This document shows, piece by piece, positions 10,665 to 43,163 of a stretch of 50,807 nt of DNA. The DNA comes from Pontiellaceae bacterium B12219 (GTDB lineage Bacteria; Verrucomicrobiota; Kiritimatiellia; Kiritimatiellales; Pontiellaceae): positions 1 through 50,807 of the forward strand of contig JARNMJ010000031.1 of the NCBI GenBank assembly GCA_029432795.1. Direction: 5' to 3'. Numbering within the stretch: position 1 is the stretch's first letter; every line of letters begins with the position of its first letter. A program made the translations under genes and the position numbers. Below the pieces are notes generated by a model. That model worked only from the letters and a program-made list of their open reading frames with translations. It was not told where the DNA came from and did not search any database.

Positions 10665-10670
10665 GCGGGA

Positions 10671-12521: not shown

Positions 12522-12530
12522 TTCTGCCTC

Positions 12531-27006: not shown

Positions 27007-27019
27007 AGCCTATCTCCTG

Positions 27020-27076: not shown

Positions 27077-27264
27077 GGTTCGTAATCGAGCAGTTCGGCG
27101 CCTTTGATCAGGCGGCAGAATTCTTTTTTGGTGACGAGGTGCGTGGTGCCCTCGCCCGTAACCGGATCCGTCATGATTTTGTAACTGACGGCTAAACGCG
27201 CGAGTTCACAGACGCGGATATACTCGTCGCCCTTTTTATAAAGTTGGTTCTGTTGTAATTTCAT
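27073..27264 (-). CDS. small conserved-looking hypothetical protein
   Basis: 63 residues (MKLQQNQLYKKGDEYIRV at the start), with a basic, beta-rich first half and a C-terminal VTKKEFCRLIKGAELLDYEP. I do not recognise a family. An in-frame extension to 27366 exists but would run into the end of the upstream gene, so the ATG at 27264 is preferred. Its stop TGA overlaps the GTG of the truncated GreA-like leader. Confidence 0.65.
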   Translation of the reverse strand: MKLQQNQLYKKGDEYIRVCELARLAVSYKIMTDPVTGEGTTHLVTKKEFCRLIKGAELLDYEP

Positions 27265-27322
27265 GCCGCGTATGTAGCACGATCCCCCGAACGACTCCAC
27301 GAAATTGGCATTGAAAACAGAA

Positions 27323-29041
27323 TCACTTAAAAATTGAATCGAAGCCCATGGCGGATTCAGAGGCAAATTCGGGAATGGCTTTTTTGCCGAAACGTTTAAA
27401 AAGCGGGTAGCAGAAAGACAGAATATTCAGCGTTACGATCCGATCGAACAGGCGATACCCATGCTCCCCGCGAAAGAACATTCTGAGCATCAGATTCAAA
27501 TGCGACCGCCGCAGTTTAAACGCAGAAAAATCAAGCATCAGCGTATAGCGCGGTTCCGCATAATTGGCTTCATAGTCGACTTTCAGCTGAATCAGGCGTT
27601 TTTCCAGTTCCGGGGTGAAATCGAGGAAATAGTATTCACGCACGGTGGCAATAATTTCAAACGTGTCATATTGAAATTTAAGATCTTCCACCGGCAATCC
27701 CAGCCTGGCGGCGAGTTCCTGCATCCGCTTGATTTTTCCCAATGCCTGGAAGCCCTGCTCCACCACCTTCTGCCCATCGGAAACATAGCAGCGCATAAAT
27801 TTGCGCATAAAGTGGTTCGCCACGATATGCCGCCAATACACCGAGACCAGCGGCGGCACCCGCAGGCGACGGAAATAAATCATACGCGAGGCAAAATCCT
27901 CGATATACAACAGCTCTTTAATCACCTCATCGGAAAGTTTCAGCAGTTCCTGCAGGGCCCGCCAATGCGGATCGGAATAGCGGTCGCGGTAATAGTCCTG
28001 AATGGCCTGATCGGCCGAGATGCCATCGCGAAACAGGCGTACCGTGACCAGCGTGTTGATTTCATTCCAGACCGCATTGTTGTCCAGAAATGTCAGACGT
28101 CGGAACCCACTCCACCCACCGGTCTGACTCCAGACGGAGATGCCGGCAATATTCTGCCCCACCAGTTGATTGCGGATTTTTTCATAATCCCAGCCGACGA
28201 AGGAGGGATATTCCCCGAACCCCTCGTATTCCCGGCGCGCCTGAAATTCCACCAGTTTCCGATGCCCGCCGCGAAAAAACAGCCGGCTCAGCGGAAGGTA
28301 GCGGAAGAAATCGGAGGCCCCGTATTTCATGGAAATGATAAAATGGTCGTTTTCCAATCCCTGGAAAACCGAATCAAAAGTTTCCGGATTCCAGATAATG
28401 TCGCCCACCCGGCCGACGCCGACGCTCCACGTTCTGAAAATCAGATTGCAGCCGAACTCCTCGAATACCGGAATCAGCGCCTCAATCATTTTGCGCGCCT
28501 GAGCCGGGCGTTTAATCACCATGCGGCTCTGAAAATCTCCAATCACATCCAGCCCGTCCGATTCTCCAATCCGGATGATGATTCCTCCAACGTTTGGAAA
28601 ATCGGTAAAGAGCTGTCGGCAGGCGGCGGCAGCAAATTTTCGCAGCTCGTCGGCGGAGGTTCCAATATGCCGCTCAATGGCATCATTGAAAAAAAGCAGA
28701 TCAGTCGTGATGTAAGGGCGCAAGCCGAACCCATCGGCAATTTCAAAAAGTTCGCTGAACAGCAGGCGGTATTCAAAAATTTTATGCGCCAAATCCGCAT
28801 CATAAAAATCGAAGATGCAGCAATGCGCCAGATCATCAAGCGTGATGGCGTTGTAGCCGGCCGCCGCCGCTTTTTCACAGAAGATTTTAAAATCGCGCCG
28901 GATCTGTTGGACCCGTCGGACATTCAGACCGTTGCCCTCTTCCAAATGCGAAAAAGGGACTTTGGACCAGTTGATAACGTCCCGGTCATACTCCCTGAAA
29001 AACGGCGCAATGCCATCAATTAAAAACAGTTCCATGGGCAC
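27323..29041 (-). CDS. putative TIM-barrel glycoside hydrolase-like protein
   Basis: 572 residues without signal peptide. The N-terminal 350 residues look like a TIM barrel: YNAITLDDL, IIIRIGESDGLDV (acidic residues at a strand end), LIFRTWSVGVG and ISMKYGASDFFRYLPLSRL. The second half is helical. The pattern recalls GH67 alpha-glucuronidase-like barrels, but I cannot fix the family or the catalytic pair. It lies 9 bp downstream of the TPR gene that closes the TonB operon and may be transcribed with it. Confidence 0.55.
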   Translation of the reverse strand: MPMELFLIDGIAPFFREYDRDVINWSKVPFSHLEEGNGLNVRRVQQIRRDFKIFCEKAAAAGYNAITLDDLAHCCIFDFYDADLAHKIFEYRLLFSELFEIADGFGLRPYITTDLLFFNDAIERHIGTSADELRKFAAAACRQLFTDFPNVGGIIIRIGESDGLDVIGDFQSRMVIKRPAQARKMIEALIPVFEEFGCNLIFRTWSVGVGRVGDIIWNPETFDSVFQGLENDHFIISMKYGASDFFRYLPLSRLFFRGGHRKLVEFQARREYEGFGEYPSFVGWDYEKIRNQLVGQNIAGISVWSQTGGWSGFRRLTFLDNNAVWNEINTLVTVRLFRDGISADQAIQDYYRDRYSDPHWRALQELLKLSDEVIKELLYIEDFASRMIYFRRLRVPPLVSVYWRHIVANHFMRKFMRCYVSDGQKVVEQGFQALGKIKRMQELAARLGLPVEDLKFQYDTFEIIATVREYYFLDFTPELEKRLIQLKVDYEANYAEPRYTLMLDFSAFKLRRSHLNLMLRMFFRGEHGYRLFDRIVTLNILSFCYPLFKRFGKKAIPEFASESAMGFDSIFK

Positions 29042-29050
29042 CTGAATGGA

Positions 29051-30577
29051 CTACCCGCGCGTTTTGGCAATGCGTTCAACTTGTTTCACGTAATCCTGAA
29101 TATCGGAACGGGGCTTGAGTTCGTAGGCGCGGCGCAGCAGCGGAAGCGCGTCTACATATTTCGCCTGACCGACCAGCAGCTGCCCATGATACAACTTGGC
29201 TTCCGCTTCAAACTTTTCAATTCCGGCGGCGCGTTCATAATAGAAAATTGCTTTTTCCGGCGTATTCCGTCCGTAGTGCTGGGCCAGCAGAATCAACGCT
29301 TCACCATCCAGCGGATCCACCTCAACGGCTTCCTCCAGAATCGCCACCACCTCTTCGCTGCCCCCTTCAGCAACGGCCACACGGGCCTGCAGTTTCAACA
29401 GCTCTTTCAGATCGGTCTGATCCAGCGCACTTTTCCGTTCGGCCACACGGTTGAGGAGGCGCTTCGATTGTTCCAGCGATCCGCGGGAAGCCAGAATTTT
29501 GGCCGCACGCAACGGCTTGGCCGGATTGTTTCCATTATCCAGTTCAAAAGAACGCAGGTAGGCATCGGCCGCCATATCCCAATGCTCTTCGTTCACATAG
29601 ATATCGCCCAGCATGGTCATGCTTTCCGCGGTTGCCTGGCCCATGGCATTGACATATTCATAATTTTCAGCCGCGCGCATCGGCTGTTTAAGGCCCAGAT
29701 AGGCGTTGGCCTGCAGCAGCCAGAAATCGCCGTTGTCCGGTTTCTTTTCCAGCAGAATATTGCAAAGGCTGACGGCATCGCCGAATTTCTGCTGCTTGAA
29801 AAAGCTGCGCGCCAGCCCCAGCTGCCAATCGATGGTTTCCGGATCGAGCAGAATCGCCTGGCGGTAAGCCGACTCGGCACAAAGCTGATTTTCGGTTGAC
29901 CCGTAGGCAAACCCGAGCAGCCCGTAGGCAATCCCGGAATGCCCCCCCAGATCAATGGTTTTGGTGAGGTATGGAATGGCCTTCTTGAAGTCCCCGTTGC
30001 GCACATGAATCAATCCGGCATTTTTATAGGCGCGGCGAAAGTTCGGAAACTGCTTAATCGCTTCGTCGTACCAATAAAGCGCATCATTGAGTTTATCCTG
30101 CTGGAAATAGATATTCGCCAGCGTGAATTCAAACGTGGCAGACGACGATTCCTTGCAGTTTTTCAGCAACAGCTTTTCCGCTTTTTCCGTATCGTCATCT
30201 TCCGACATGGCATCGAGAATTTTCTGCATCTGTTCGTATTCAACCGCCGTCAGTTTCGGTTCAATATCGGTATTCACCCCATAGCTGGCCATGAACTGTT
30301 TCTGAAAAGCGTCTTCGTCCCAGATGGAAAGATCTTCAATCTTTTTCGGCTTCGTGTTCACCATCGATTCCGGCGGATTACGAATGGTTCCCATGTCCGG
30401 CAGCGCATTGATGAAATCCTGCATTTCATTGGCACCGGCCACTCCGGCCATCAACAGGACACTTAAGAAGTACATTTTTTTTGAACCGCTAAAGAGCGCA
30501 GAGAACGCGAAAGCTGAGGTTTCCCTGTGATCTTTGCGCTCTTTCGCGGTTAATATATTCAGTTGTTTCATTTTCAT
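29051..30577 (-). CDS. TPR-repeat protein of TonB2-type operon
   Basis: 508 residues from the ATG at 30577, which has AGGAA 6 bp upstream. A second in-frame Met (30475) begins a normal signal peptide, MYFLSVLLMAGVAGANE, but lacks a ribosome binding site. The 34 residues between are encoded by a hairpin repeat (30484-30551), so the repeat probably entered between the ribosome binding site and signal peptide; the mature protein may be the same. The rest is TPR motifs (KLNDALYWYDEAIKQFPNF, KAIFYYERAAGIEKFEAEAK). TonB2-type operons commonly end with such a TPR protein. Confidence 0.82.
   Translation of the reverse strand: MKMKQLNILTAKERKDHRETSAFAFSALFSGSKKMYFLSVLLMAGVAGANEMQDFINALPDMGTIRNPPESMVNTKPKKIEDLSIWDEDAFQKQFMASYGVNTDIEPKLTAVEYEQMQKILDAMSEDDDTEKAEKLLLKNCKESSSATFEFTLANIYFQQDKLNDALYWYDEAIKQFPNFRRAYKNAGLIHVRNGDFKKAIPYLTKTIDLGGHSGIAYGLLGFAYGSTENQLCAESAYRQAILLDPETIDWQLGLARSFFKQQKFGDAVSLCNILLEKKPDNGDFWLLQANAYLGLKQPMRAAENYEYVNAMGQATAESMTMLGDIYVNEEHWDMAADAYLRSFELDNGNNPAKPLRAAKILASRGSLEQSKRLLNRVAERKSALDQTDLKELLKLQARVAVAEGGSEEVVAILEEAVEVDPLDGEALILLAQHYGRNTPEKAIFYYERAAGIEKFEAEAKLYHGQLLVGQAKYVDALPLLRRAYELKPRSDIQDYVKQVERIAKTRG
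30484..30551. repeat. hairpin repeat inside an N-terminal coding region
   Basis: Arms AACCGCTAAAGAGCGCAGAG (30484) and its inverted copy ending CTTTCGCGGTT (30551) match at about 18 of 20 positions. It lies within the first 34 codons of the TPR gene. It resembles the hairpins at 24833 and 25715. Confidence 0.8.
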
Positions 30578-30586
30578 AGTTCGTTC

Positions 30587-31246
30587 CTACTTTTGGAAAG
30601 TGATCGGCACGCGCATCCGGAACTGGACGGCTTTGCCTTTACGTTTACCCGGTTCAAATTTCCACTGCTTAACCGCCTTCAATGCGGGATTGTTAAAGGA
30701 AGGATGCGTAGATTTCTGCACCTTTAAATCGCGCGGCCGGCCGGACTGGTCGACCACGAATAAAATATAGACAGTTCCCTGCATTCCTTTACGGGCCAGC
30801 TCGGGCGGATAGATCGGCGCGGGCTGATACACCACGCGCGGTTTCTGGTCGAGATCCGACAGCGAAAAGATGGCATCCACATCGTTCCCTTTTCCGGCTA
30901 CGCCATCGAGGTTGATGGAAAAATCGCCGCCGCCGAACCCGCCGTCGCCCGGATTCAAAGCCAGCTCAAGCTGGGAAAGATCCAACGGTGCGGCATCCAC
31001 CGCCGGGGGCGGAGGCGGCTGTTCTTCCGGCTCCGGCTCTTCCTCTTCCTCCATCGGAGGCGGAGGCGGGGGCGGCACATTGGCCACCTCCACCGAACGA
31101 ATCGTCAGATCCTTGCCAGGCGGTTTGGTGATTACCTGCAGAATGGGCAGCAGCATGAAAAAACAGAACGTCAGTCCCAGCCCCAGTCCAAGACTGGCGG
31201 ACTGGCGAAGAACCGAACGAAAAAATCTGGCGAGCGTTTCCAACAC
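30587..31246 (-). CDS. tonB: TonB energy transducer
   Basis: 219 residues. A cytoplasmic N-terminus, one membrane helix (GLGLGLTFCFFMLLPILQVI, about 19-38), then a Pro/Glu-rich linker (PPPPPPP and EEEEEPEPEE around 58-78) that spans the periplasm, and a TonB C-terminal domain (about 135-219) with YPPELARKGMQGTVYILFVV and WKFEPGKRKGKAV. It carries proton-motive energy from ExbB/ExbD to outer-membrane receptors such as the one at 34788. The stop is a TAG. A dispersed palindrome overlaps the last codons (30584-30598). Confidence 0.93.
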   Translation of the reverse strand: MLETLARFFRSVLRQSASLGLGLGLTFCFFMLLPILQVITKPPGKDLTIRSVEVANVPPPPPPPMEEEEEPEPEEQPPPPPAVDAAPLDLSQLELALNPGDGGFGGGDFSINLDGVAGKGNDVDAIFSLSDLDQKPRVVYQPAPIYPPELARKGMQGTVYILFVVDQSGRPRDLKVQKSTHPSFNNPALKAVKQWKFEPGKRKGKAVQFRMRVPITFQK

Positions 31247-31249
31247 AAT

Positions 31250-31660
31250 CTACCCCTGATTTTTGAGGGTGGCGATGCTCACCTTCACGGCACCGGCCAG
31301 CTTGGCTTCGTCGATCACGCGGACCATCAGGCCCGACATCACATTCTGATCGGCCTGAATGATGACCGGCACTTCTTCCTTCTGCATCATCCGTTTCACC
31401 AGCGGGCGAATTCCACTGATTCCGATTTCATTTCCGCCATACACAATTTCTCCGTTTCCGGTGATCGCAATCATGATGCTGGTTTTCTCCAACTGGACCG
31501 ATGAAGCCGCCTGAGGTTTATCCACCTCCACGCCGGTTTCCTCCACAAAGGTGGTGGTCACGATGAAGAAAATGAGAAGAATGAAAACACAGTCAATCAG
31601 CGGGGAAATATCCACCACTGCTTCGGTATCGTCGTCCGAACTGCTTTTAAAACGAGCCAT
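31250..31660 (-). CDS. exbD: ExbD of TonB2-type system
   Basis: 136 residues with one membrane helix and the conserved Asp (SPLIDCVFILLIFFIVTT). The periplasmic part has EEVPVIIQADQNV and ends at VKVSIATLKNQG. It lies 3 bp upstream of tonB and follows exbB after a 138-bp gap without a visible gene. It forms the proton-motive complex with the ExbB at 31799. Confidence 0.93.
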   Translation of the reverse strand: MARFKSSSDDDTEAVVDISPLIDCVFILLIFFIVTTTFVEETGVEVDKPQAASSVQLEKTSIMIAITGNGEIVYGGNEIGISGIRPLVKRMMQKEEVPVIIQADQNVMSGLMVRVIDEAKLAGAVKVSIATLKNQG

Positions 31661-31798
31661 TGTTTATACTCCGTAAATTGAAAGATGAAGGTTGAAATCA
31701 GAACAATGAAACTCGACCCGACGGCGCTGTGGCATCTATTGAGGCAAACGCCGAATGAGTTCCGTTTTCTTCTTTCATCATTCCTCTTTTTTCTTTGC

Positions 31799-32425
31799 CT
31801 AAGCGGCTTTGGCCGCGTGTTGGCTTTCTTTAAAAATCCGTTGAGAACACACCGTGTTCAGGTGTGCTAGGAAGGCCTTATACTGCTGGTGTTCCCGTCC
31901 GAGTTTGTACTGAAAAATCAGGCCTGGAAGCGCGATGAGCAATCCGGTTTCGGTGGTGATCAAGGCTTCCGAAATCCCGGAGGCCACCATGCCCATGGTT
32001 TTGTCGCCGCCCGCTCCGGTGGCCAGAGCGGCAAAGGTGGCGAGCATACCGGTCACGGTGCCGAGCAGCCCGAGCAGCGGCGCAATGCTCACACAGGTCT
32101 GCATCACTTTCAGGTCGCGGTTAATCGGAGCAATTTCAGTTTGGTTCAGCTCATCAAAGAAAATATTGATCTCTTTGAGCGTATTGGCGCTCATCACAAA
32201 CCGGATCATCCGCCCGACGGGACCGCGGCCTTTTTCCGGCTCTTTGACCCAGCGCTTCATTTTCTTTTCGGTAACGTAGAGGTAGCCCTTTTCCCGAATG
32301 CGGAAAAAGATACTGGACCCCATATAGAAAATGATCAGGGCATCCACGGCCAGCGCGATCATCGCCCATCCGCCGGAAGCCCAGATGGCAAGGGCCTGTT
32401 CCCAAATTGTTTTTGTCTCTTCCAT
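31799..32425 (-). CDS. exbB: ExbB of TonB2-type system
   Basis: 208 residues with three hydrophobic segments. The first is AIWASGGWAMIALAVDALIIFY (as positions about 13-34), then the signature SIAPLLGLLGTVTGMLATFAAL and EALITTETGLLIALPGLIF. It has no signal peptide and is shorter than the other ExbB-like protein (3780), as expected of ExbB2 in TonB2 loci. It is 34 bp downstream of the TtpC-like gene; the gap contains a GTGCGTAA fragment like the heptamer region at 13.9 kb. Confidence 0.92.
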   Translation of the reverse strand: MEETKTIWEQALAIWASGGWAMIALAVDALIIFYMGSSIFFRIREKGYLYVTEKKMKRWVKEPEKGRGPVGRMIRFVMSANTLKEINIFFDELNQTEIAPINRDLKVMQTCVSIAPLLGLLGTVTGMLATFAALATGAGGDKTMGMVASGISEALITTETGLLIALPGLIFQYKLGREHQQYKAFLAHLNTVCSQRIFKESQHAAKAA

Positions 32426-32459
32426 AGTGCGTAATCCGTGAAACGTGAGGCGCGATTAA

Positions 32460-33932
32460 TTACGCAGGAACGGGTTCGAGTTCAGCAACGGCGGCTTCCG
32501 CTTCCGGCGGTTCTTCAACAGAACGCGTGGCGCGGTTCATGAAGAGAATCGCAATCTGTTCCATCGTGTCGGTAATGCGTTTGGCCTTGCGGGTGAGGAA
32601 GGCACTGAGCACCAATGCGGAGATGGCCACCACCAGCCCCAGTTCGGTTGTGATGAGCGCCTCGGAAATTCCGCCCGACAGTGTTTTCACATCGCCCGAA
32701 CCAAACACGGTAATCAGCTTAAAGGTGTTGATAATCCCGGTCACCGTGCCGAGCAGCCCCATCAGCGGAGCGGTGGAAGCACAGATTGCCAGCACCGGCG
32801 TGAGCTTGGTAACCTTCATGCGGGTCGTCAGCATTTCTTCATACATGACTTCTTCCACCAGATCTTTCGGCTCATTGATGTGTTCAATGCCGACGGTGAG
32901 CATCGCGGCGGTCGGGCCTTTCAGTTTTTTGATTTCGGCAGCGGCTGTTGCATGGTCGTTCTCGAGCATGGCCCGCAGCACCGGCTGAACAGCCTTTTCC
33001 GAGGTCTTCGGAATGGCGGAAAGCTGAATCCATTTGATGAGTGCAATCACGACACTGAGCCCGAACATGCCGAGAATGACATACGCCACCATGCCGCCTT
33101 TTTGAATATGCTCCTTAAACGACTCCTGGGTCTCTTCAATTTTGCGGGCGTTTCCAAGGCTTGGATCAAACGGAAAGAGGCCGCCCTTTGCGGCCACGGC
33201 GGAGGCCGTCATTTCCGCATTTGCGAGATCAGCAAAAGGCAGAACGGTGGGTTCCAGCGAGCCGAGGCGTTGTTCCGCAATCCCGGAAAGCGAACCGTCG
33301 TTCGCGGCAAACAAAGCAATGGGACCGATCAGCAGAAATTCGCCCTGCTTAACCAGACCGTCTTCCCCGGCTGCGGTACCCGAAAAGGCATCGCCGCCGA
33401 CAACCGATTGCAACCGGGCAATCGACGCTTCCACCAACGCGGTCTGCTCAACAAAAATCTCCTCATCGGAAAGGTTGCTGTTATCCGGCGCAAGAATCGC
33501 GGACTGAACAACGTCTTCGTATTGATCCAGTTCAGCAATATGTAAACGCGTTTCAAAGTTGCGGGTATATTCGCCGAGCAGGCTGGAAATATAACTGATC
33601 TCTCCTTTGCGTGCTTTAATGTCTGCACGCAGATTATTGAGATCCAGATTTCGACTGTCGAGCTGGCGTGTAATCTTCTGGTTTTCAAGCCGCACATCCA
33701 GCACTTCGTCTTCCAGGGCATTCAGCCCCTTGACCATCGGCAGTTTTTCTTTGGCGATGGTTTTCCGAACATTGGAAAGTTCCTGCAGGCTGGCTTCGAG
33801 CTTCTGCTGCATTTCGGTTTGTGAATCGGCAAACGTGTACATGGCAAACAGGCCGAGCACACAAACCGTGAAAATAAGTATCCGTTCAATTCGGTTACGG
33901 CGTTGGGTGAAATAAAATCCAATATCGTTCAT
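32460..33932 (-). CDS. TtpC-like MotA/TolQ protein with periplasmic coiled coil
   Basis: 490 residues. An N-terminal membrane helix (ERILIFTVCVLGLFAMYTF, about 16-34) leads to a long periplasmic coiled coil (about 40-130) and a linker region. The MotA/TolQ/ExbB module starts near 290 with VAYVILGMFGLSVVIALI; ASTAPLMGLLGTVTGIINT and EALITTELGLVVAISALVL follow. This design is that of TtpC, an extra protein needed by the Vibrio TonB2 system, which joins ExbB2, ExbD2 and TonB2 in the inner membrane. The gene order here (DUF3450, TtpC, ExbB, ExbD, TonB, TPR) is the same as in gammaproteobacterial loci I know. Confidence 0.9.
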   Translation of the reverse strand: MNDIGFYFTQRRNRIERILIFTVCVLGLFAMYTFADSQTEMQQKLEASLQELSNVRKTIAKEKLPMVKGLNALEDEVLDVRLENQKITRQLDSRNLDLNNLRADIKARKGEISYISSLLGEYTRNFETRLHIAELDQYEDVVQSAILAPDNSNLSDEEIFVEQTALVEASIARLQSVVGGDAFSGTAAGEDGLVKQGEFLLIGPIALFAANDGSLSGIAEQRLGSLEPTVLPFADLANAEMTASAVAAKGGLFPFDPSLGNARKIEETQESFKEHIQKGGMVAYVILGMFGLSVVIALIKWIQLSAIPKTSEKAVQPVLRAMLENDHATAAAEIKKLKGPTAAMLTVGIEHINEPKDLVEEVMYEEMLTTRMKVTKLTPVLAICASTAPLMGLLGTVTGIINTFKLITVFGSGDVKTLSGGISEALITTELGLVVAISALVLSAFLTRKAKRITDTMEQIAILFMNRATRSVEEPPEAEAAVAELEPVPA

Positions 33933-33970
33933 CTGATGTCCTATGTGTTCAAACGTGAATTAAAAATGGG

Positions 33971-34720
33971 TTAGTCAATGCGGACAGGCAGCGGAAGAAA
34001 GGCCGCCACTTTTTCATTTTTCAAAATGGAAATGGAATCGGCCACGGTCTGCGCCATTTCATTTTTCTGCTCCCACTTCCAACCCTTGGACGTCGGCGAT
34101 CCGACAAAAGCCACGTCGCCGTTGTTGTTGCAGGAGTAGGCGGCGGAATAGCCGATGTATAAGGTCTGCACTTCAGCGGTCGTGCCGTCGGCCAGCGTTT
34201 TCACTTCGCTCAGCACCGTAATTTCACCGGCCCCTTTATTAAGGTCGTTAATAATTCCGATCACGTTCTGATAACGCTCCGACAGCGAAAGATCGGTTTC
34301 CTGCGTTTTCGGAATGCGCTGGCTCAGCGGTTTAATGCGATCCTGCACCGGTTCCGGCAGCATTGTTAAAAGATCCAGAACTTCGCGCTCCAAGGTAAAG
34401 ATTCGGTTAACCAATGTGGCAGACGCATTTTTAAGTTCGTCCTTTTCCTTAACCAGATCCTCACGCTTTTTATCGGCATCGGTGATCAACGATTGGGTTT
34501 CGTGTATTTTTTTACTGAGCGTATCGCGCTCATTGCGAACCAGGTCAATCCGGTCGCCCAGGATTTCCCGTTCCAGCTCCCACCCCTGCTTTTCCTCCGA
34601 GATCAGCTTACGGGTTTCCACCCATTTCGAAAGGGTTTCACGGGTCATGTCCAGCTCATCGGCATGCACGCCGAAAGCGGCACTGGAAATTGCTAAAATT
34701 ATCAACAGTTGTTTTTTCAT
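33971..34720 (-). CDS. DUF3450 domain periplasmic protein
   Basis: 249 residues with a signal peptide (KKQLLIILAISSAAFGVHA) and a long coiled coil to about residue 120 (REILGDRIDLVRNERDTLSK). The C-terminal half is globular, with LYIGYSAAYSCNNNGDVAF and PTSKGWKWEQKNEM. This is the layout of DUF3450 proteins, usually found directly before TtpC/MotA-TolQ genes as here (38 bp). The role is unknown; a periplasmic partner of the TtpC coiled coil is likely. One dispersed palindrome at 34077. Confidence 0.88.
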   Translation of the reverse strand: MKKQLLIILAISSAAFGVHADELDMTRETLSKWVETRKLISEEKQGWELEREILGDRIDLVRNERDTLSKKIHETQSLITDADKKREDLVKEKDELKNASATLVNRIFTLEREVLDLLTMLPEPVQDRIKPLSQRIPKTQETDLSLSERYQNVIGIINDLNKGAGEITVLSEVKTLADGTTAEVQTLYIGYSAAYSCNNNGDVAFVGSPTSKGWKWEQKNEMAQTVADSISILKNEKVAAFLPLPVRID

Positions 34721-34787
34721 ATTTACCTCGGACTAGATTTCTATTGTCAGAATGTTATTTCAGAATGAGCAGTTCATTAGGGAAGTG

Positions 34788-37700
34788 TTACCAGAAGGCG
34801 GTTAGATCCAGGGAATACTCCAGCCCGCGCTGATAGGAGGTCTTCACCTGATCTGCTCCCGTATAGGGCGAGCGATAGACTTCCTGAATAACCGGGTCCG
34901 TCAGGTTCTTGGCCTTAAAGGTCAATCGCAAGTGGTTGCCCAGATTCTGTGAAACCGAAAAATTGAGCACCCCGAACTCTTTGGCATAGACATCCGGAAT
35001 GTATCCGATATCAGTGGCCGCTCCGGCGACCAGCGTATCTCCTTTCACGAAATAAAAGAGCCCGAACTGTGTGCCGAATTTTGCAAGATCATAGGTCAGG
35101 TTTACATTGAACAGGCGATCCGGCGTATTGAGCATATCCCGCGTTGCTCCGGGATAACCGGCGGTCTCCAGCCGGGCGGCATCGGTTTCATCCAGCGTGA
35201 CTTCCGATTCTATGAAGGTGGCATTTGCACCGAACGTCAGGCCTTCAAGCGGATCCCAGAACTGTCCCAGCTGCTGCCGAAACTCCAGTTCGATTCCGGT
35301 CAGCTTCCCTTCCGGATAATTAACCGGCGTAATATAGCTGCCGACGTTGGCGGCATACCCCTGGGTATATTCAATCGGGTCTTCAATGGTTTTATAAAAC
35401 CAGGATCCCGAAATCAGTCCGCCGGGATAGGGCGAATAATCCACACGCACATCGTAGTTTTTCAGATTGCTCATGATTAAATTCGGATTACCGATGAAGA
35501 CCTCCGCCCCCAGATATTCCTGCTGTTGAAGCGGGGTGAGTTCCTTGAAGGTCTGGCGGGCCACCGTCTCCGCATAAGAGAGGCGGATGATGACCGAATC
35601 AATCGGCTTAACTTCCAGCCCGAGCGACGGCAGCACATCGTTCTGCTGATAATCCACATCGGCCTCGCTGGGCAAAAGTTTGGACACCCCGGACTCCCCC
35701 GGCTTCACCCAATAAACATCGTCCTCAGGATCAACAATCGTGGTCGAAATATCCGTACTCTCATAGCGTGCGCCGCCAATGAAGGTCAAATGGGAGGAAA
35801 CCGGAAGTTCCAGCATATAGTACCAGGCGGAAATATCCTGAGCCCCGTCATACCCCGCATCAATATCCGAAGCAAACATGACATCATTCGCGGTTGGATA
35901 GTCGTCTGTCCAGAATTCACTCCATGGCAGGGACGGTCCTTTATTCGGGTTGATATTCGAATCCCCAATTTTCTTGGTATTACTGAATGATTCCTTTGTA
36001 TAGGTCCGCCGTACTTTATCATTAAACAAGCCCAGTTTCAACGCGCCCTTATCGCCGCTCCACTGCTCAAACGGCAGGCTTCCATTCAGGAAATACTGCT
36101 CACTGGTTTCATCAATGGTTTCCCAGATTCGCTGGACATTCCCCAACGATTCCACGGGCGGTTTATCCTGATAATAGCTCTGCGCAACCGCATTGGTTGT
36201 GGCGGGATTTCCCCGTCGGCCGGGAATGATCTCCGTATATCCCGGATTCCAAATAGAGCCGAACAACCGTTTATCCGGACTGTTCAGATACGAGTCGCTG
36301 CCGGCAATGGTCCAGTCCAGTTCCGGTTCCAGGAACCACAGAACATCTTTTTTTCCAAACTCCGGAAACGGCAGCACGTGCTCCCCGTGCAACTGCAGCG
36401 TAGAGGTGTCGCGTTCAATATACTGCAGTGTCTGATTCCGGCGATACGGTGCCGCATCCACATATTCCGCGCTGTCCGCCGGAGCCATCGGATCGTAACC
36501 CGGAACCTGTGAGGTCACATAAAATTCTTTGCCGCGAGTATCCTCTGCAAGCGTAGCTTTGGTTTCGGCCACATGCGTTTCCATATATAACAGTGAAACC
36601 TTCTGCTGCCCGATCTCCGCACCAACGGAACCAAGGCCTCCCCACTGGATTTCTTCGGTGCCCTGATCCACATTAAACAGACTGGTTTTAAACTGTTTCC
36701 CGGCCGTCGAATACAGGGGGTCCTCTTCAGAATGAATCGGAACATAGGCTCCGTCCCGATACCACCATTGATCATCGGTGGCATTATCCACATAAGACGC
36801 CTCCGATTTATAATAGAAATTCCCCAGGGCAGAAATCCGCACATGATCGGAAACGTTGAACGAATCGCCGGCCGTAAGCGACCAGTTATACATCGGCAGC
36901 GCATCGCCTTTACCTGTGCCCACCGCGCCGCTCCAGGTGGTGCCGGGCGTTTGCGGATCATCCGACGCTTCGAGCTGCCCCCAGTAATTCATGTCTGCCC
37001 CGTCATAGGTCAGGAAATCTCCAGCGCCCGGAACGGCGGTTTTATATTTCGTTCCCACCTTGAATTTAAGCACCGGTTCCGTCGGCATGCTTTTCAGCAC
37101 AATATTCACCGCACCGCCGGACGCATCGCCCTGCTGATTCGGGGTGAATGTTTTGGTCACCTGCATGCTTTCAATCAAGTCGCTGGGAAACTGATCCAGC
37201 TGCACGGCGCGTTTATCCGGATCGGCGGAAGGGAGGCGCACCCCGTTCATCTGCGAGCTGACATAGCGATCCGGCAGACCGCGTACCACCGCATACTTTC
37301 CATCCTGCACCGTGGTTCCCGGCACCAGACTCAACGCCTGCGCCGCATCCGAAGCCCCCGCCTGCCCCATCATATCCGAGCCCACGGAATCCATCATGGC
37401 CACACTGTCCATGCGCAGGTTCAGCAGGCCGATCTCCGAGGCCCCGCCGAGCTGAATATCGCGCACCACCAGCTCATCCATCTCTTCGTATTCGCCGGCC
37501 ATTCTGGCTTCAACATCTTTCAGTTTCCCCGGAACCACCACCACTTCGGATTGCGTAAAACGGGTATAGCCTCCTTTACTGAACATCAGGGTATATGCAC
37601 CCGGTTCAATATTCTGAAGGTTATAACTGCCCGTATCACCCGTCACAGTTTCCTGACCGGTTTCAGACACCACCACTTTCACGCCGGGAAGCGGAACCTC

Positions 37701-37811
37701 GAAATCCGAATCCATCACCACCCCGCGAATACCGCCCACCTGAGCGAATACCGCCGTGGCGGAAAGTATGAATCCCATCCCCAACGTTCTGAAAATTGTC
37801 CGGCTTACCAT
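34788..37811 (-). CDS. TonB-dependent outer membrane receptor
   Basis: 1007 residues. After a signal peptide, a carboxypeptidase-regulatory-like beta domain (about 28-95: GIRGVVMDSDFEVPLPGVKV, given to 20) precedes a likely TonB box, MDELVV near 111. The plug domain follows (SLVPGTTVQDGKYAVVRGLP, MNGVRLPS, QGDASGGAVNIVLK) and then a 22-strand-type barrel ending in a Trp after a Phe (TAFW), the usual end signal for BAM. The ligand is not known. The gene overlaps the TPR gene upstream by 7 bp and precedes DUF3450-TtpC-ExbBD-TonB, so receptor and energy supply are in one operon. Confidence 0.93.
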   Translation of the reverse strand: MVSRTIFRTLGMGFILSATAVFAQVGGIRGVVMDSDFEVPLPGVKVVVSETGQETVTGDTGSYNLQNIEPGAYTLMFSKGGYTRFTQSEVVVVPGKLKDVEARMAGEYEEMDELVVRDIQLGGASEIGLLNLRMDSVAMMDSVGSDMMGQAGASDAAQALSLVPGTTVQDGKYAVVRGLPDRYVSSQMNGVRLPSADPDKRAVQLDQFPSDLIESMQVTKTFTPNQQGDASGGAVNIVLKSMPTEPVLKFKVGTKYKTAVPGAGDFLTYDGADMNYWGQLEASDDPQTPGTTWSGAVGTGKGDALPMYNWSLTAGDSFNVSDHVRISALGNFYYKSEASYVDNATDDQWWYRDGAYVPIHSEEDPLYSTAGKQFKTSLFNVDQGTEEIQWGGLGSVGAEIGQQKVSLLYMETHVAETKATLAEDTRGKEFYVTSQVPGYDPMAPADSAEYVDAAPYRRNQTLQYIERDTSTLQLHGEHVLPFPEFGKKDVLWFLEPELDWTIAGSDSYLNSPDKRLFGSIWNPGYTEIIPGRRGNPATTNAVAQSYYQDKPPVESLGNVQRIWETIDETSEQYFLNGSLPFEQWSGDKGALKLGLFNDKVRRTYTKESFSNTKKIGDSNINPNKGPSLPWSEFWTDDYPTANDVMFASDIDAGYDGAQDISAWYYMLELPVSSHLTFIGGARYESTDISTTIVDPEDDVYWVKPGESGVSKLLPSEADVDYQQNDVLPSLGLEVKPIDSVIIRLSYAETVARQTFKELTPLQQQEYLGAEVFIGNPNLIMSNLKNYDVRVDYSPYPGGLISGSWFYKTIEDPIEYTQGYAANVGSYITPVNYPEGKLTGIELEFRQQLGQFWDPLEGLTFGANATFIESEVTLDETDAARLETAGYPGATRDMLNTPDRLFNVNLTYDLAKFGTQFGLFYFVKGDTLVAGAATDIGYIPDVYAKEFGVLNFSVSQNLGNHLRLTFKAKNLTDPVIQEVYRSPYTGADQVKTSYQRGLEYSLDLTAFW

Positions 37812-39010
37812 GGGTTGCCCAATCCTGCTTTAATTTCAGCCATCCGGTCCCGAAGCGCAGCATCGGGTTCAACGTCAAGGCGGGCCATCGAAAGGCCGAT
37901 CAGACACAGATCTTCCGCACGGGGACGGGAGTTGCTGTTCACCACCGCTTCCTCCACGGCCAGCGCATAGATGTTCCGGGCCTTGGAAAAATCGCCCATC
38001 CGGGCATACGCCTCGGCAACCGACAGCAACGATTCCGTGCGAAAGACATCAATGATCTCGCCCTTCTGCTCGGAGAAAACTTCAACGGCTTGCTGCAGCG
38101 CTTCGGCAGCAAGCTCCGGTTGTGCACAAAGGCAACGGAGGTCGGCCATTTTGGCCAGCACCTGCACATGATATTCCGCCGGCCAGACTGAACCGTCCAC
38201 AATCGCCTGCGCCTCATCGGTAAGGTGCTGCGCGGTTTCCAGATCCCCGGCCTGCTGCGCGGTTTCCGTCATCGTGGTCAGCAGATCAATTCGGCTTAAA
38301 TACGGCAGTTTATTCCAGCCGCCCAGAATCGCCTGTTCAATCCATTCACGGCGGGCGGTATCGGCATAAAACTGTTTATAAAGAGTGGTATAGGATGCGA
38401 GGGCCGTCTGCTGCAGTTCCAGACCGCCCACGGCAAGCTGGGCATTCAGCTTTGCGGCATAGTCATCAAATTCATCCGGCGCACAAACCTGCGCATTATT
38501 CAGTTCAGCAGAACCCTGTTCCGATGCATTCAGCACCCGGTTGACCTGCTGCAGCTTATTGGTGTTTCCTAACGCCTTCCAGGCCTTGGAAAGTTTCAGC
38601 AGCACCGTATCGCGCCGCCATTCCTGCTCGGCCGTATCCGCCGAAAACCGGGCCTGATTCAACAGCGTTTCCAATTGGTTCGTCACCCCGTGGGCAATGC
38701 TGTAATTGGCGTAGTCAGCGAGCGCCACACCCTGCCGCCAGTTTGGAATCTGTTCCGCGTATTTCAAAGCCAACGACGGCTGATCCAGTTCCAGCGCCGT
38801 CTCAACCGCCTTTTGCTGAAAACGGGCGCGGTCTTTAATATGCGGAGCAAGCGGAATGGCCGTTGCCAGTTCGAACGATTGATTCAACAGCACGCGTTGA
38901 AAGCCGGCGGCCGGAGCATCGGCCAGCTCCATCTTTTTTTCCATTTCCATGCCGTAAGACGCCAGCACAGCAAACGAACCTAACCATAATATTTTTTTAA
39001 TTAACCGCAT
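37805..39010 (-). CDS. exported helical-repeat protein of receptor operon
   Basis: 401 residues from the ATG at 39010, preceded by AAGGTG; an extension to 39088 exists but would place 26 residues before the signal peptide (RLIKKILWLGSFAVLASYG). The rest is helical pairs of TPR/HEAT-like type (ALELDQPSLALKYAEQIPNW, EAYARMGDFSKARNIYALAV). The function is unknown. It is placed between the beta-helix protein and the TonB-dependent receptor and may sit in the periplasm beneath the receptor. Two dispersed palindromes (37974, 38577) are inside. Confidence 0.75.
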   Translation of the reverse strand: MRLIKKILWLGSFAVLASYGMEMEKKMELADAPAAGFQRVLLNQSFELATAIPLAPHIKDRARFQQKAVETALELDQPSLALKYAEQIPNWRQGVALADYANYSIAHGVTNQLETLLNQARFSADTAEQEWRRDTVLLKLSKAWKALGNTNKLQQVNRVLNASEQGSAELNNAQVCAPDEFDDYAAKLNAQLAVGGLELQQTALASYTTLYKQFYADTARREWIEQAILGGWNKLPYLSRIDLLTTMTETAQQAGDLETAQHLTDEAQAIVDGSVWPAEYHVQVLAKMADLRCLCAQPELAAEALQQAVEVFSEQKGEIIDVFRTESLLSVAEAYARMGDFSKARNIYALAVEEAVVNSNSRPRAEDLCLIGLSMARLDVEPDAALRDRMAEIKAGLGNPW

Positions 39011-39105
39011 CAAATTCACACCTTTTGCACACATTAATCGAGATATAAGAGCGGTGGCAGGGAAACCCCTGCCACCAGTATATTTCATGTTCCTATCGGA
39101 TCAGG

Positions 39106-40842
39106 TTATTTGGTAACCACGCGGTAGAAACCAGCGGCCTGCAGATTTGCGTCGCCATAGTTTTTATACGATCCATCCCCCATCACCGTGGCCACATACT
39201 TCCAGGGACCACCCGGGTTATCAGAACCTTCGATTGCGTAGGACACGCCATACTCGGACTGGAAGGAAACCACTACTCCCGGATTGATCGTTGCAGCCGG
39301 AGAAGCCGAGTTCATGCTGGTATCCGTCATGCCGTAGGCATCAACCGAAGTCCAGCCGGCCAGCCAGTTATAGCTGGATGAGAATGCTCCGCGATACGGA
39401 GCGGAAACATAGAATCCATCCGCAACTTCCGGAGAGGCAACAGCAAGCGCATCGTTCTGAGCGCACGGGTTGATGTTCGTCACCAACGCAACGCTTTTTC
39501 CGCCGCGGGTAACTGTTTCGCCACGGGTAAAGCTTACAATCGGATCCGCTGTTGTAACCACATTATCGAGTGTCGGATTGCTGGCCCAGGCGCCGGCTGT
39601 TCCGTTCAGAACGCCGAGGGCAAGGATTTGATCATTCGCATCAGACTCATTGCAGTAGTTGAACAGGCAACCTGTCATTTCAGCAAGATAGCCGGAGGTC
39701 TGAACCGGATACGCATCCGCCTGATTGGCATACACATCAGACACCCAGTTTACAGCAGAGTAGTTGCTGTAAGCGGTAGTCCAGGTTTCTGCCCAGGTCA
39801 GAGTTCCGTTATACCCATACCCCTGCGCACCATCTCCGTCATCGCCATCAAAACGAATCGCTTCTTCGCCGATATCCATGAAGATGCTGTTGTGATACTG
39901 CACCCGGGCATTGTCGCGCCATGCGGTTCCGCCGTCACCGGAAAGCGGATTTCCGATTACGGTGAAGTTGGCAATCTTCGTGGTGGTTACCGGCTGTGCA
40001 TCGGAATCTTCCGCACCGTCGATTTCAATACAGTTGTCGCCGAGGCCTGAACCCTGGCTGGCATCTGTGGAATAACCCTGAACGATCAGACCGAACTGCG
40101 CTTTACCACGCCATCCCTGATCCACATCCAGACTGTCATCACCGATGTTCCAGATGTTCAGATATTTCAGGTTAACCGTGCCGCCCCAGATTTCGATGCC
40201 GTCATCCACGTTGTTCATAATATCAATGTGGTGAATATCCGTCTCGCGACCGATCGCACCCAGTGACAAACCATTCAGTTCGTTTGCCAAACCAATAACT
40301 TTACCGCCGTAACGAAGCGACAGATAACTGATCGAGCCGCTGTCATCATTATCATCATTACCGCCGTAATACGTATCATTCACGCCGTCATCAACCAGCC
40401 CTTCCATCTGAACCGTGTTCAAACCGGTCGGAGTCGGTGTATTGCCCGGACGCGAACGAACCGCATCGGAAGAAGCGCCGATCAGGCCGCGTCCCATCAG
40501 CGTCAGGTTGCCCCATTCGTTACAGCCTTCATGCCAGTTCACCAGATCGTCAAGGGTGGAGGTCATAATGACCGGCTCATCCTGCGTTCCTTCAACATAA
40601 ATCTTTGCGCCGCGGGAAACCGCAAGCGATCCGCCCACTCCCGCCGTACTCTGAACCAGCGTTCCTTCTTTAATCGTGAGCGTGGCCCCTGACCGAACAT
40701 AAATCTGTTTCGTCAGGTTATACACATTGTCTTTTGTCCACGTCACCGAATTGGTGATGTCCGATGTGATGTCGATATTGGCTGCCTGAGCGGCAACTCC
40801 GGCACCCATCAATGCTGCTGCAATGATAAACTGCTTTCTCAT
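39106..40842 (-). CDS. exported beta-helix-like protein of receptor operon
   Basis: 578 residues with a signal peptide (KQFIIAAALMGAGVAAQA). The mature part opens ITSDITNSVTWTKDNVY and then QIYVRSGATLTIKEGT, a pattern common in surface proteins of Bacteroidetes and Shewanella-like bacteria that lie next to TonB-dependent receptors. The middle has right-handed beta-helix-like rungs (GETVTRGGKSVALVTNI, IWGGTVNLKYLNIWNIGDDS). The C-terminus is a small beta domain ending in FYRVVTK. It is the first gene of the nine-gene TonB2-type operon, with ribosome binding site AAAGGAGAA. It may be a surface ligand-binding partner or a cargo. The precise role is open. Confidence 0.75.
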   Translation of the reverse strand: MRKQFIIAAALMGAGVAAQAANIDITSDITNSVTWTKDNVYNLTKQIYVRSGATLTIKEGTLVQSTAGVGGSLAVSRGAKIYVEGTQDEPVIMTSTLDDLVNWHEGCNEWGNLTLMGRGLIGASSDAVRSRPGNTPTPTGLNTVQMEGLVDDGVNDTYYGGNDDNDDSGSISYLSLRYGGKVIGLANELNGLSLGAIGRETDIHHIDIMNNVDDGIEIWGGTVNLKYLNIWNIGDDSLDVDQGWRGKAQFGLIVQGYSTDASQGSGLGDNCIEIDGAEDSDAQPVTTTKIANFTVIGNPLSGDGGTAWRDNARVQYHNSIFMDIGEEAIRFDGDDGDGAQGYGYNGTLTWAETWTTAYSNYSAVNWVSDVYANQADAYPVQTSGYLAEMTGCLFNYCNESDANDQILALGVLNGTAGAWASNPTLDNVVTTADPIVSFTRGETVTRGGKSVALVTNINPCAQNDALAVASPEVADGFYVSAPYRGAFSSSYNWLAGWTSVDAYGMTDTSMNSASPAATINPGVVVSFQSEYGVSYAIEGSDNPGGPWKYVATVMGDGSYKNYGDANLQAAGFYRVVTK

Positions 40843-41315
40843 TTAACATTCTCCTTTAGTTTTTATCCGTCAGTTGAAGCGGTCGCCCGCGATATATAAA
40901 ATGGTGCTAAAGGGGAGAACCGGAGGCCTTTTCTTTTTTACCTTCCGTATTCGACAATCCAATTGAAGCGTTAAGTGAAAAGGGTTCGTTAATTAAAAAC
41001 CGTTCCAATTGAATTGCTCCCTTCAACGCCGATGATTTGGCCCTTCCGATGTTTGGAAAACATTAGGAGATCTTATGGATGCCGTTGGCACTTTGTGGCT
41101 GAATCGCTAAGAAAAGGTTAGCGTTCTGTTTGCGCCCTTTAAAACGCCCGGTTTTCCAACCTCTGGAAGACAAACCGGCGGCCGCGGGTTTTCCGAACAG
41201 AAGAATGAGACTCCCCGTTGCAAGCAGACGGGGTATTAAACCCAATGCGTCGCAATAAAAAAACGCCCCGGCACAAATGCACCGGAGCGTTTCCAAAACT
41301 GCCTATTGATTTAAC
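40843..41315. other. 473-bp intergenic region before the TonB2 operon
   Basis: The region holds the TonB operon promoter (leftward; a TATATAT-rich stretch at 40890-40902 may be its -10), two exact dispersed palindromes (41044-41058, 41154-41168), and the terminator of the oxidoreductase unit. No gene is supported: the one long open frame here runs through the terminator. Confidence 0.5.
41257..41292 (-). terminator. intrinsic terminator of the oxidoreductase operon
   Basis: On the minus strand AAACGCTCCGG (41282-41292) pairs with CCGGGGCGTTT (41261-41271) except for one mismatch, with a 10-nt loop, followed by a run of T residues (GCGTTTTTTTATT). It follows the stop codon at 41316 by about 24 bp. 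Confidence 0.88.
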
Positions 41316-42260
41316 CTACAGCGTAACCACCGCTTTCCCCACCGTGCGGCCGGATTCAATCTGAAGGTGCGCATCCTGCAGCTTTTCAAACGGAAAGGTC
41401 ACAGACACGTGCGGTTTCAATGTACCCTCTTTAAGCATCCCCGCCAGCGTGTTCATATCTCCACCGCTCGACTGCACCATCACAAACTCCAGCGCAACAC
41501 CGGCAGCATCGGCCTTGGCCTGCAACGCAGCTTCAAAGCTATGCGTGGGCAGCGATACAATTTTTCCGCCGGACTTCACCACCTGAATGGAGTTTTCAAG
41601 AATATCGCCGCCCATGCCATCCAGCACAAAGTCGATATCGCTCAGTACCTCTTCAAACTTCTGCTCGCGATAGTCGATATGTTCATCGGCACCGAGCGCC
41701 AGACAGAAATCCCGGTTCTTCGAAGATGATGTAGTGACGACCGTTGCACCCATGCTCTTCGCCATTTGGATTGCAAAGTGGCCGACGCCGCCGGAGCCGG
41801 CATGAATCAGCACGCGGTCGCCGGCTTTCACCCGGCCGGTCAGCACCTGCAGCGCCGTCAGCGCAGCCAGCGTGGTGGCGGCGGCATCTTCAAAACTGAT
41901 GCCTTCCGGAATCACCGCCAGCTGGTCGGCCGGAGCAGCCACATAGTCCGCGTAGGCTTTACCCTGCCCCACAAAGTTGACCATGCCGAAGACCTTGTCG
42001 CCGACGTTGAAATCAGTAACGTCCGCACCAACCTCGGCCACGATGCCGGAAATATCCCAGCCGAGAATCACCGGGCGTTCCTCCGTGCCGAGAATCATGC
42101 TGAGGGCTTCTTCATACGGTCTGACTTTTACATCCACCGGATTAATGCTGATGGCTTTGGTTTCCACCAAAACTTCATCCGCTTTAAGGATCGGCTTTTC
42201 GATTTCGCTCAGGACGAGGTTTTCCACGCCGCCCGCTTTGTTTAACAGATATGCTTTCAT
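41316..42260 (-). CDS. NADP-dependent quinone oxidoreductase-like protein
   Basis: 314 residues of the zinc-free MDR family (QOR-like). NPVDVKVRPYEE near residue 40, GWDISGIVAEVGADV near 70, and the Rossmann loop VLIHAGSGGVGHFAIQMAKS (about 149-168) are the main signatures. No structural zinc Cys cluster is present. It probably reduces quinones or enones with NADPH. It follows the DUF4437 gene after 75 bp and a TetR operator lies upstream of that pair, so the gene may respond to a reactive compound. Confidence 0.92.
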   Translation of the reverse strand: MKAYLLNKAGGVENLVLSEIEKPILKADEVLVETKAISINPVDVKVRPYEEALSMILGTEERPVILGWDISGIVAEVGADVTDFNVGDKVFGMVNFVGQGKAYADYVAAPADQLAVIPEGISFEDAAATTLAALTALQVLTGRVKAGDRVLIHAGSGGVGHFAIQMAKSMGATVVTTSSSKNRDFCLALGADEHIDYREQKFEEVLSDIDFVLDGMGGDILENSIQVVKSGGKIVSLPTHSFEAALQAKADAAGVALEFVMVQSSGGDMNTLAGMLKEGTLKPHVSVTFPFEKLQDAHLQIESGRTVGKAVVTL

Positions 42261-42335
42261 TCTATTTTTCCTCAGTTGATTTAAACGGCACAGAGCACCG
42301 TTCTACACAGCATGATGCTCCGCGCCGTGTGGAAG

Positions 42336-43163
42336 TTATTCAGTTATGTTGATCTCGTATTTTCCATCCGTCCGGACATAAAGAAGGCTCTCTTCTTGCG
42401 CTTCAATTTCCAGCACGGCCGGTCCAACCGCTTCGATGCCGCTGCCCGGAAGCAGGTCGTTTTCTTTGTATTCAACCGCGCCCTTAACCAGTACGGCGCG
42501 AAACGTTGAACCAGGGCTTTTGATGCTTCCCTCAAACCCGTCGGCCAGTTTGATAAAGGTTCCGTTCAGTTCACCCTCCTGCCAAAGAAAGGCAACCTGT
42601 GCGTCGGACTGATTCACCCAGGTCATGTCGGATGCATTGAGCCAAACCACATTGGATTCATCCACGTTGACCGGTCGCTCGCCGCTGTCGAAATGCTCTT
42701 CTTCAGGCAGTACCAGATACGGACCCTTTTCGATTTCAATGTAAGCCAGCGAGCTTTGTCCCTCTGCGGCAGTGATATGCACCTCCCCCTTCGGCTGCGT
42801 CCAGAACGAACCCGGCGGCATCCACATCTCGGCAGCATTGGGATCGTCGTTATGAATCACACCCTGAATCACAACACCACGATAGGACACATTATGAATA
42901 TGCGGCGGCGATTCAAAATTGCTCGGCGGCTTGAGCAGAAAACCGGTCGGTTCTGTCCCGTTGCGATCGCCCCACAGCGTTCCGGCTTGGGGTGCCAGGT
43001 CGCCGCGCTTGGGGTTCAGGTGCGTCCACTCCACTTCCGATGCTTGAATAACCGTAACAGTTGCATGGTCATGTTCCGCAGGCTTCGGGGTTCTCCCGCC
43101 GGCCATTGCAAAATTGGCGGCAATGCATGCGGCGAATGCCACGGCTGTTGTTATTTTTTTCAT
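42336..43163 (-). CDS. DUF4437 cupin-type exported protein
   Basis: 275 residues with a signal peptide ([17 protein letters not shown]). Two cupin-like halves follow: the first has [20 protein letters not shown] and [15 protein letters not shown], with His residues suited to a metal; the second has [20 protein letters not shown] and [16 protein letters not shown]. This two-part layout matches DUF4437. The substrate is unknown. It heads an operon with the oxidoreductase and has a TetR-type operator in its upstream region. Confidence 0.87.

Follow-up and report, generated by a model that had tools for sequence, protein, structure and literature searches.

Gene Content and Organization of the Locus

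We analyzed a stretch of 50,807 nucleotides (contig JARNMJ010000031.1, here called the window) from the draft genome of Pontiellaceae bacterium B12219 (Verrucomicrobiota) and focused on an array of nine genes on its minus strand (40842..29051), a candidate system for phosphorus scavenging. All nine open reading frames (ORFs) were found (9/9) where the initial annotation had placed them, on one strand and with small gaps (Table 1). The array starts with the genes of a right-handed beta-helix protein (BHX), a TPR protein (TPRa) and a TonB-dependent receptor (TBDR), followed by the six genes of a TonB energy module. Pfam matches above cut-off were obtained for 7 of the 9 genes, namely TBDR (PF00593, PF07715, PF13715), DUF3450, two MotA_ExbB proteins, ExbD, TonB_C and the second TPR protein (TPRb), while TPRa gave a sub-threshold Pfam match only. 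In the direction of transcription, a gap of 473 nt separates the preceding gene from BHX, which is followed by 95 nt with a strong hairpin, by TPRa and by the TBDR gene, overlapping TPRa by 7 nt. The gaps 3' of the TBDR gene are, in order, 67, 38, 34, 138, 3 and 9 nt, and distances across the array range from the 7-nt overlap to 138 nt. For TPRa the ATG at 39010 is more likely the start than position 39088, because a signal-peptide-like N-terminus was read there by eye; the gap of 95 nt results from this choice.

As proposed in the initial annotation, the gene order was compared between genomes. It was found again in further genomes of the genus, in additional families of the same class and among Planctomycetota, and the array is therefore not a product of chance. 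A tenth gene (27323-29041, 572 amino acids) starts 9 nt 3' of TPRb. Pfam, NCBIfam and PDB sequence searches with it gave no match. It also lies 3' of the operon in the same-genus genomes G159, G035 and G380, but none was detected there in G227 and G050.

Table 1. Genes and predicted regulatory features of the locus (window coordinates).
Feature	Position	Strand	Basis
BHX, right-handed beta-helix protein of 578 aa; signal peptide recognized by eye, lipobox lacking	39106..40842	-	ORF, model, structural alignment
Hairpin 3' of BHX, terminator-like, weak T tail	39052..39077	-	Stem in 9/9 related gaps
TPRa, 401-aa alpha-helical repeat protein	37805..39010	-	Model and relatives; several relatives lipoprotein-like
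TonB-dependent receptor (TBDR) with CarboxypepD_reg-like domain	34788..37811	-	Pfam, NCBIfam, trees
DUF3450 protein, TtpB-like	33971..34720	-	Pfam, 99 bits (cut-off 32.6)
TtpC-like large MotA/TolQ/ExbB protein	32460..33932	-	Pfam
ExbB-like protein	31799..32425	-	Pfam
ExbD-like protein	31250..31660	-	Pfam
TonB-like protein	30587..31246	-	Pfam; NCBIfam tonB_Cterm, 63.7 bits (cut-off 27.1)
TPRb, TtpD-like TPR protein	29051..30577	-	Pfam
Pho-box-like array 1, CAAACAG-N4-CTAACCT-N4-TTAGCGA, three half-sites, 11-bp steps	41104..41132	-	Motif from expectation maximization (EM), predicted
Pho-box-like array 2, CTAATGT-N4-CAAACAT, 66 bp from array 1	41049..41066	-	EM motif, predicted

The Beta-Helix Protein and TPRa

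BHX had no Pfam or NCBIfam match, with a best Pfam E-value of 0.011 among 32 aligned members, and PDB sequence searches revealed no useful solved relative. The structure prediction suggested in the initial annotation yielded a right-handed beta-helix with a mean pLDDT of 78.4. VIA-align matched this model to numerous structures with a right-handed beta-helix (best Z 21.3, 257 residues, root-mean-square deviation (rmsd) 3.1); Foldseek alone found nothing at an E-value of 0.001 or better. Many carboxylates were invariant in 32/32 members, and several of them (D166, E188, D213, D235) were spaced 22-25 residues apart, as would be expected for residues on adjacent rungs of the helix. Such a carboxylate ladder might hold metal ions along one face of the helix and bind a phosphorus compound there.

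BHX is a single-copy gene in its own genome. Its N-terminus, inspected by eye, carries no cysteine, so the protein does not qualify as a lipoprotein; the BHX proteins of Alteromonas and Sphingomonas do have one. By sequence, the window BHX is homologous to these two, with 35% identity to the Sphingomonas protein over 237 residues (E 1e-28), while ElpS of Caulobacter and the FI protein of Flavobacterium johnsoniae were likened to it by gene context and description only. The initial annotation had called BHX a surface-type beta-helix protein of unknown role. The fold was supported by model and VIA-align, and the role is not wholly unknown, as putative relatives in the same context are described as phosphate-starvation proteins (PMC2996285, PMC8115612). 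Some relatives are multi-domain proteins of 1026-1577 amino acids with two or three domain copies each (L066, L068, L070, L077), and the Alteromonas BHX (L163:9758-13828) has several copies in 1356 amino acids.

The confident model of TPRa (pLDDT 91.0) was all-helical and formed a nearly closed alpha/alpha solenoid, with a designed closed alpha/alpha toroid as best VIA-align match (Z 17.3, 340 residues, rmsd 4.9). N360, R362 and P363 were invariant among 23 relatives, 10 of which carry a lipobox-like pattern. A SusD-like nature of TPRa was considered and dropped: no SusD was among the best 50 matches listed by Foldseek or VIA-align, which does not exclude a likeness, and no SusD-family Pfam match was obtained for BHX, TPRa or the scanned neighbors.

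A Conserved Pair of BHX and Receptor

Within the phylum, 70 of the 387 genomes, among them the own one, had a BHX match; the weakest matches may share beta-helix segments only. Of the 69 other genomes, 40 were taken for inspection of the BHX neighborhood, mostly the best-scoring ones. Outside the phylum set, the collection held at least 595 relatives, of which the best 80 were covered, and of 21 plasmid records six Proteobacterial ones were inspected. A same-strand TBDR gene was located no more than 6 kb from BHX in 39/41 phylum loci (window included) and in 66/80 collection loci; the two phylum exceptions (L043, L076) have BHX at the edge of their contig. Four or more of the five energy genes were encoded on the strand of BHX, no further than 14 kb away, in 24/41 phylum and 10/80 collection loci. 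Named collection records with BHX matches include Planctomycetota, Bacteroidota, Ignavibacteriaceae, Zixiibacteriota, Latescibacterota, Gemmatimonadales and Opitutae. BHX and energy module occurred together in the phylum of the window, in Planctomycetota and on three Alteromonadales plasmids. In Sphingomonas and Indioceanicola (Alphaproteobacteria) the BHX-TBDR pair is followed by gsp genes, which is the context of ElpS and CC0171. The BHX proteins of Planctomycetota (L082-L092) are 49-59% identical to the window BHX in the best segment, the listed relatives from other orders of its class 31-44%; this closer kinship suggests transfer between phyla.

The receptors linked to BHX are related as well. 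The best NCBIfam match of the window TBDR was TIGR01782 (TonB-Xanth-Caul) with 227.6 bits, below the cut-off of 310, and the same model was the best match of three Proteobacterial BHX-linked TBDRs. Compared with the 12 BHX-linked TBDRs listed, the window TBDR gave E-values from 4e-101 to 2e-17; compared with the four other Plug-bearing receptors of its own genome, it gave E-values of 0.72 and 8.8 for two and no match at E 10 for the others. A quick tree united the 62 BHX-linked TBDRs included in one clade (SH-aLRT 99) apart from these four receptors, a result biased toward a single clade, as the 62 had been gathered with BHX-linked TBDR queries and the four outsiders form very long branches. 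Joint descent of motor and BHX across phyla was not supported, since the TtpC tree, with a weak deep split (75/81) and long branches, placed the three Alteromonadales sequences with C88, a paralog of the window TtpC from its own genome, and not with the group of the window. From these comparisons we concluded that BHX and TBDR form the conserved core, to which the motor is joined in some lineages, because of the TBDR clade, the discordant TtpC tree, the gsp-linked pairs and the many collection loci, the majority, without a nearby TonB module. The initial proposal that the first three genes are receptor-specific was supported.

The Energy Module

The last six genes (DUF3450, TtpC, ExbB, ExbD, TonB, TPR) agree in kind and order with the Vibrio TonB2 operon TtpB2-TtpC2-ExbB2-ExbD2-TonB2-TtpD2 as described in PMC6957404, just as the initial annotation had stated. 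In Vibrio vulnificus TtpB2 and TtpD2 are required for the TonB2 system (PMC6957404). The NCBIfam equivalog models scored far below cut-off (exbB2 52.1 bits versus 135.35, ExbD_2 30.7 versus 123.45); the architecture is therefore shared, yet ExbB and ExbD were not filed as Vibrio-type equivalogs. An operon of this type was held to be unusual outside Gammaproteobacteria. This view was not sustained: among the matches listed, DUF3450 exceeded the Pfam cut-off in 106/387 genomes of the phylum (139/387 at E 1e-3), and the own genome contains two more TtpC-ExbB pairs. These belong to two further DUF3450-TtpC-ExbB-ExbD clusters on contigs C66 and C88 (L039, L040, L179, L202); both lie about 6 kb or less from a TonB-dependent receptor, not the same one in each case. 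Within the window, a second ExbB-like gene, TPR-rich proteins upstream of it and two large proteins further on were observed at 3780-13865, perhaps another MotA/ExbB-type system.

Genes of Phosphate Metabolism in the Neighborhood

PhoB-class regulators were counted at a score of at least 217 bits and, like DUF3450, among the matches listed. A PhoB-class regulator was found within 12 kb of BHX in 10/42 BHX genomes, where gene number and genome size would predict 0.37, and PstS was found there in 8/42 (0.38 predicted). By hand count either of them lay within 12 kb in 15/42 genomes from nine families. As control, PhoB or PstS within 15 kb was found in just 1 of 31 DUF3450 loci without BHX from the same genomes, a set that omits some DUF3450 fragments. 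The neighboring PhoB was the best or second-best of its genome in G003, G032, G081, G294, G380 and G351. In G380, a complete single-contig genome of the same genus, PhoB, a histidine kinase, a Na/Pi cotransporter and two OprO/P-type porins lie 4-17 kb from BHX together with PstS, PstC, PstA, PstB and PhoU, all five above their NCBIfam cut-offs. The distances in G035 were 19 kb for PhoB and 34 kb for PstS. On the Alteromonas macleodii plasmid pBGP9, phoB, phoR, pstS, an oxygenase gene, BHX, TBDR and the six energy genes stand in one row. A PhoB-, PhoR- or PstS-like match was present in 19/80 collection loci (hand count, no control set), and the Bacteroidota BHX-TBDR loci L102, L112 and L129 adjoin PhoB/PhoR-like genes. 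Three loci from three genomes of one family (L057, L063, L064) carry two PstS-like genes within about 6 kb of BHX.

Pho-Box-Like Arrays and the Hairpin

An EM motif was derived from 22 upstream regions of pstS, PhoB-class regulator and Na/Pi-cotransporter genes. It is a tandem CTAACA-like repeat with a period of 11 bp, observed in the genus and its order (L173, L175-L178, L188-L196), which we take to resemble the classical Pho box in layout. Array 1 was the best site in the 400-nt upstream region of BHX in the window. The best BHX-upstream site was equaled in 3 of 300 shuffles for the window, 3 for G159, 53 for G227, 12 for G035, 10 for G380 and 25 for G050. Array cores were alike in six genus members and weaker in G227, and paired arrays 66 bp apart were present 5' of BHX in the window, G159, G227 and G380. 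In a ranking of 67 intergenic upstream regions by a two-site sum, all from loci of the genus and among them the BHX promoters, a phoB-side region came first, followed by the BHX promoters of G159, the window (third) and G050. Array 2 alone (260 nt, one site) scored 11.36, which is close to the 90th percentile in a set of 204 upstream regions that includes Pho loci.

The stem of the hairpin after BHX was present in all nine gaps compared (genus, two order members, G314). A clear T tail was seen in G035, G380, G050, G032 and G081, while that of the window is weak. Two stretches from Planctomycetota were also inspected: a similar hairpin is present in L084, and none is evident in the first 200 nt of L082. 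Covariation of the stem showed no excess over shuffles (nine rows, two possibly misaligned). The hairpin would fit production of BHX in excess of its receptor. Like the published separate regulation of elpS and cc0171 in Caulobacter (PMC2996285), it suggests that BHX and receptor are not simply co-expressed. The only Rfam match in 27000-42500, a sub-threshold one to Spot 42 (E 0.9), was rejected.

A Model for Phosphorus Scavenging and Its Alternatives

We consider it probable that the locus encodes a system for scavenging phosphorus at the outer membrane, which is controlled by PhoB and powered by a private TonB motor. This reading builds on gene content and order, the BHX-TBDR linkage, the kinship of the linked TBDRs, the linkage to Pho genes, the Pho-box-like arrays of the genus and the hairpin. 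At low phosphate PhoB would bind the CTAACA-type repeats and activate transcription. Some transcripts would end at the hairpin, and read-through would yield receptor and motor; due to this partial stop BHX would be made in excess, and it would be exported. At or near the surface BHX may collect a phosphorus compound via the invariant carboxylate ladder, which probably holds metal ions, and may hand it to the co-inherited TBDR. The TtpB-TtpC-ExbB-ExbD-TonB-TtpD module would power this TBDR from the ion gradient. The proposal of a dedicated uptake machine for one ligand thus gains support, as the evidence points to one nutrient, likely phosphorus; phosphate-esters, among the inducers listed in the initial annotation, are in line with this nutrient.

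We are aware of several observations that speak against this model. A search of the 50.8-kb window revealed no Pho gene; the own contig stops 10 kb upstream of BHX, and the own draft genome has PhoB and PstS on other contigs. PhoB or PstS within 12 kb was missing in 27/42 BHX genomes, in some for lack of contig, and no PhoB-class match attained the curated TIGR02154 cut-off of 296.2. Two Pseudoalteromonas plasmids carry module, BHX and TBDR with no named Pho gene beside them, and a Marinobacter plasmid has BHX with neither TBDR nor TonB module nearby. At the promoter level, the BHX upstream regions of G380, G035 and G227 rank just 8, 11 and 20 of 67 by the two-site sum, and no good site was found upstream of BHX in G003, G032, G081 and G314, all outside the genus. 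E. coli-type Pho boxes had been tried as well and were rejected, as they did not exceed shuffles 5' of BHX, pstS and phoB-type genes (even in the best case equaled by 34/200 shuffles). For Caulobacter, PMC2996285 reports that deletion of elpS left phosphatase activity unchanged, that intracellular phosphate showed no change, and that cc0171, unlike elpS, is not phosphate-regulated.

Three other explanations were weighed. The locus could serve glycan utilization, with BHX binding or cleaving a polysaccharide and the TBDR importing the products, while the Pho linkage would reflect phosphate-linked or co-regulated substrates. The top-ranked structural matches of BHX are indeed mostly polysaccharide lyases, epimerases, polygalacturonases and phage tailspikes, the Flavobacterium relatives were modeled as polygalacturonase-like and proposed to bind or hydrolyze glycans (PMC8115612), and there are undescribed genes near or in the array, such as the tenth gene. 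The fold by itself, however, reveals no function, BHX and the tenth gene gave no CAZy-type match in Pfam or NCBIfam, and the Pho-gene linkage and the low-phosphate induction of relatives (PMC8115612) point elsewhere; we regard this explanation as unlikely. Iron or other metal uptake in the manner of Vibrio TonB2, with BHX as metal-binding accessory, agrees with the many invariant carboxylates of BHX, with weak matches of the TBDR to models of hemin and siderophore receptors, which all stay far under cut-off, and with the Fur control and siderophore-serving role of the Vibrio operon (PMC6957404). Judged by gene linkage, it is very improbable, given that BHX loci are linked to Pho genes far more often than the control DUF3450 loci (15/42 versus 1/31).

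Alternatively, TBDR and motor might export BHX, with the receptor as outer-membrane gate and BHX acting outside. BHX and the TBDR clade remain linked across phyla, and in Myxococcus the receptor Oar is reportedly needed for secretion of the protease PopC. The window BHX, as a protein without lipobox, and the absence of GspD, GspE and GspF matches from the window, to which the search was confined, would also agree with this route. ElpS reaches the surface even without a type II secretion system (T2SS) (PMC2996285). On the other hand, import is the best-known role of TBDRs and many BHX proteins have no adjoining TonB module, so export also appears unlikely. A rather doubtful idea is that TBDR and private TtpC-type motor bring BHX to the surface or cycle it between a free and a receptor-bound state, so that a secreted phosphorus-catcher replaces SusD, with one motor per pair; it would account for the lasting pairing of BHX and receptor clade across phyla, with motor or T2SS swapped around them. 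Phosphorus scavenging with the TBDR as importer was retained as the preferred interpretation.

Comparison With Known Systems

Among the closest counterparts in the literature are phosphate-starvation proteins. Caulobacter ElpS is made under phosphate starvation, is found at the outer membrane and is also released; its overproduction raises extracellular phosphatase activity, while ElpS itself is apparently no phosphatase (PMC2996285). The PhoB regulon of Caulobacter takes in TonB receptors and T2SS (PMC11208175). ElpS is an extracytoplasmic protein tied to phosphate starvation and, like BHX, encoded beside a TBDR (CC0171), and a Sphingomonas relative of BHX stands in the same BHX-TBDR-gsp context. 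ElpS differs in being a lipoprotein beside T2SS genes (PMC2996285), whereas the window BHX lacks a lipobox and its pair is followed by a TonB module.

FI, FII and FIII of F. johnsoniae are 31-36% identical to the lipoprotein of Caulobacter (PMC8115612). FI accounts for 18.7% of the low-phosphate exoproteome, FI and FII adjoin low-phosphate TonB-dependent transporters (TBDTs), and one of the three proteins is encoded in the phoBR operon (PMC8115612). These beta-helix-like low-phosphate exoproteins near TBDTs (PUSIII, PUSIV) resemble the window pair; they differ as lipoproteins, and the likeness is one of description (PMC8115612). The Bacteroidota BHX-TBDR pairs examined have no adjoining TonB module, unlike the window. 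SusCD and PusCD likewise combine a TBDT with an extracytoplasmic partner, and PusCD is phosphate-controlled (PMC8115612), but BHX and TPRa have no SusD-family Pfam match.

For the energy module, the Vibrio TonB2 operon is the obvious counterpart. As described in PMC6957404, however, it stands without BHX, TPRa and TBDR, is regulated by Fur and serves siderophores. Most similar to the whole array is Alteromonas pBGP9, where BHX, TBDR and the six-gene module follow directly 3' of phoB, phoR and pstS; it differs in its multi-domain BHX, in the absence of an annotated TPRa and in the position of its TtpC elsewhere in the tree. Our literature search, limited in scope, retrieved no publication linking ElpS/FI-type proteins to a DUF3450/TtpC module.

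How phosphorus compounds are actively carried across the outer membrane is little understood. Members of the ElpS/FI family are abundant under phosphate stress in Flavobacterium (PMC8115612), yet neither a Pfam model nor a sequence-detectable solved structure was found for them. The locus connects this family to one receptor clade and, in some lineages, to an energy module, and since pair and motor share a single operon, all parts for testing the mechanism of the pair are in one place. Rather than a new kind of system, the locus is probably an ElpS/FI-receptor pair to which a TtpC-type motor has been added.

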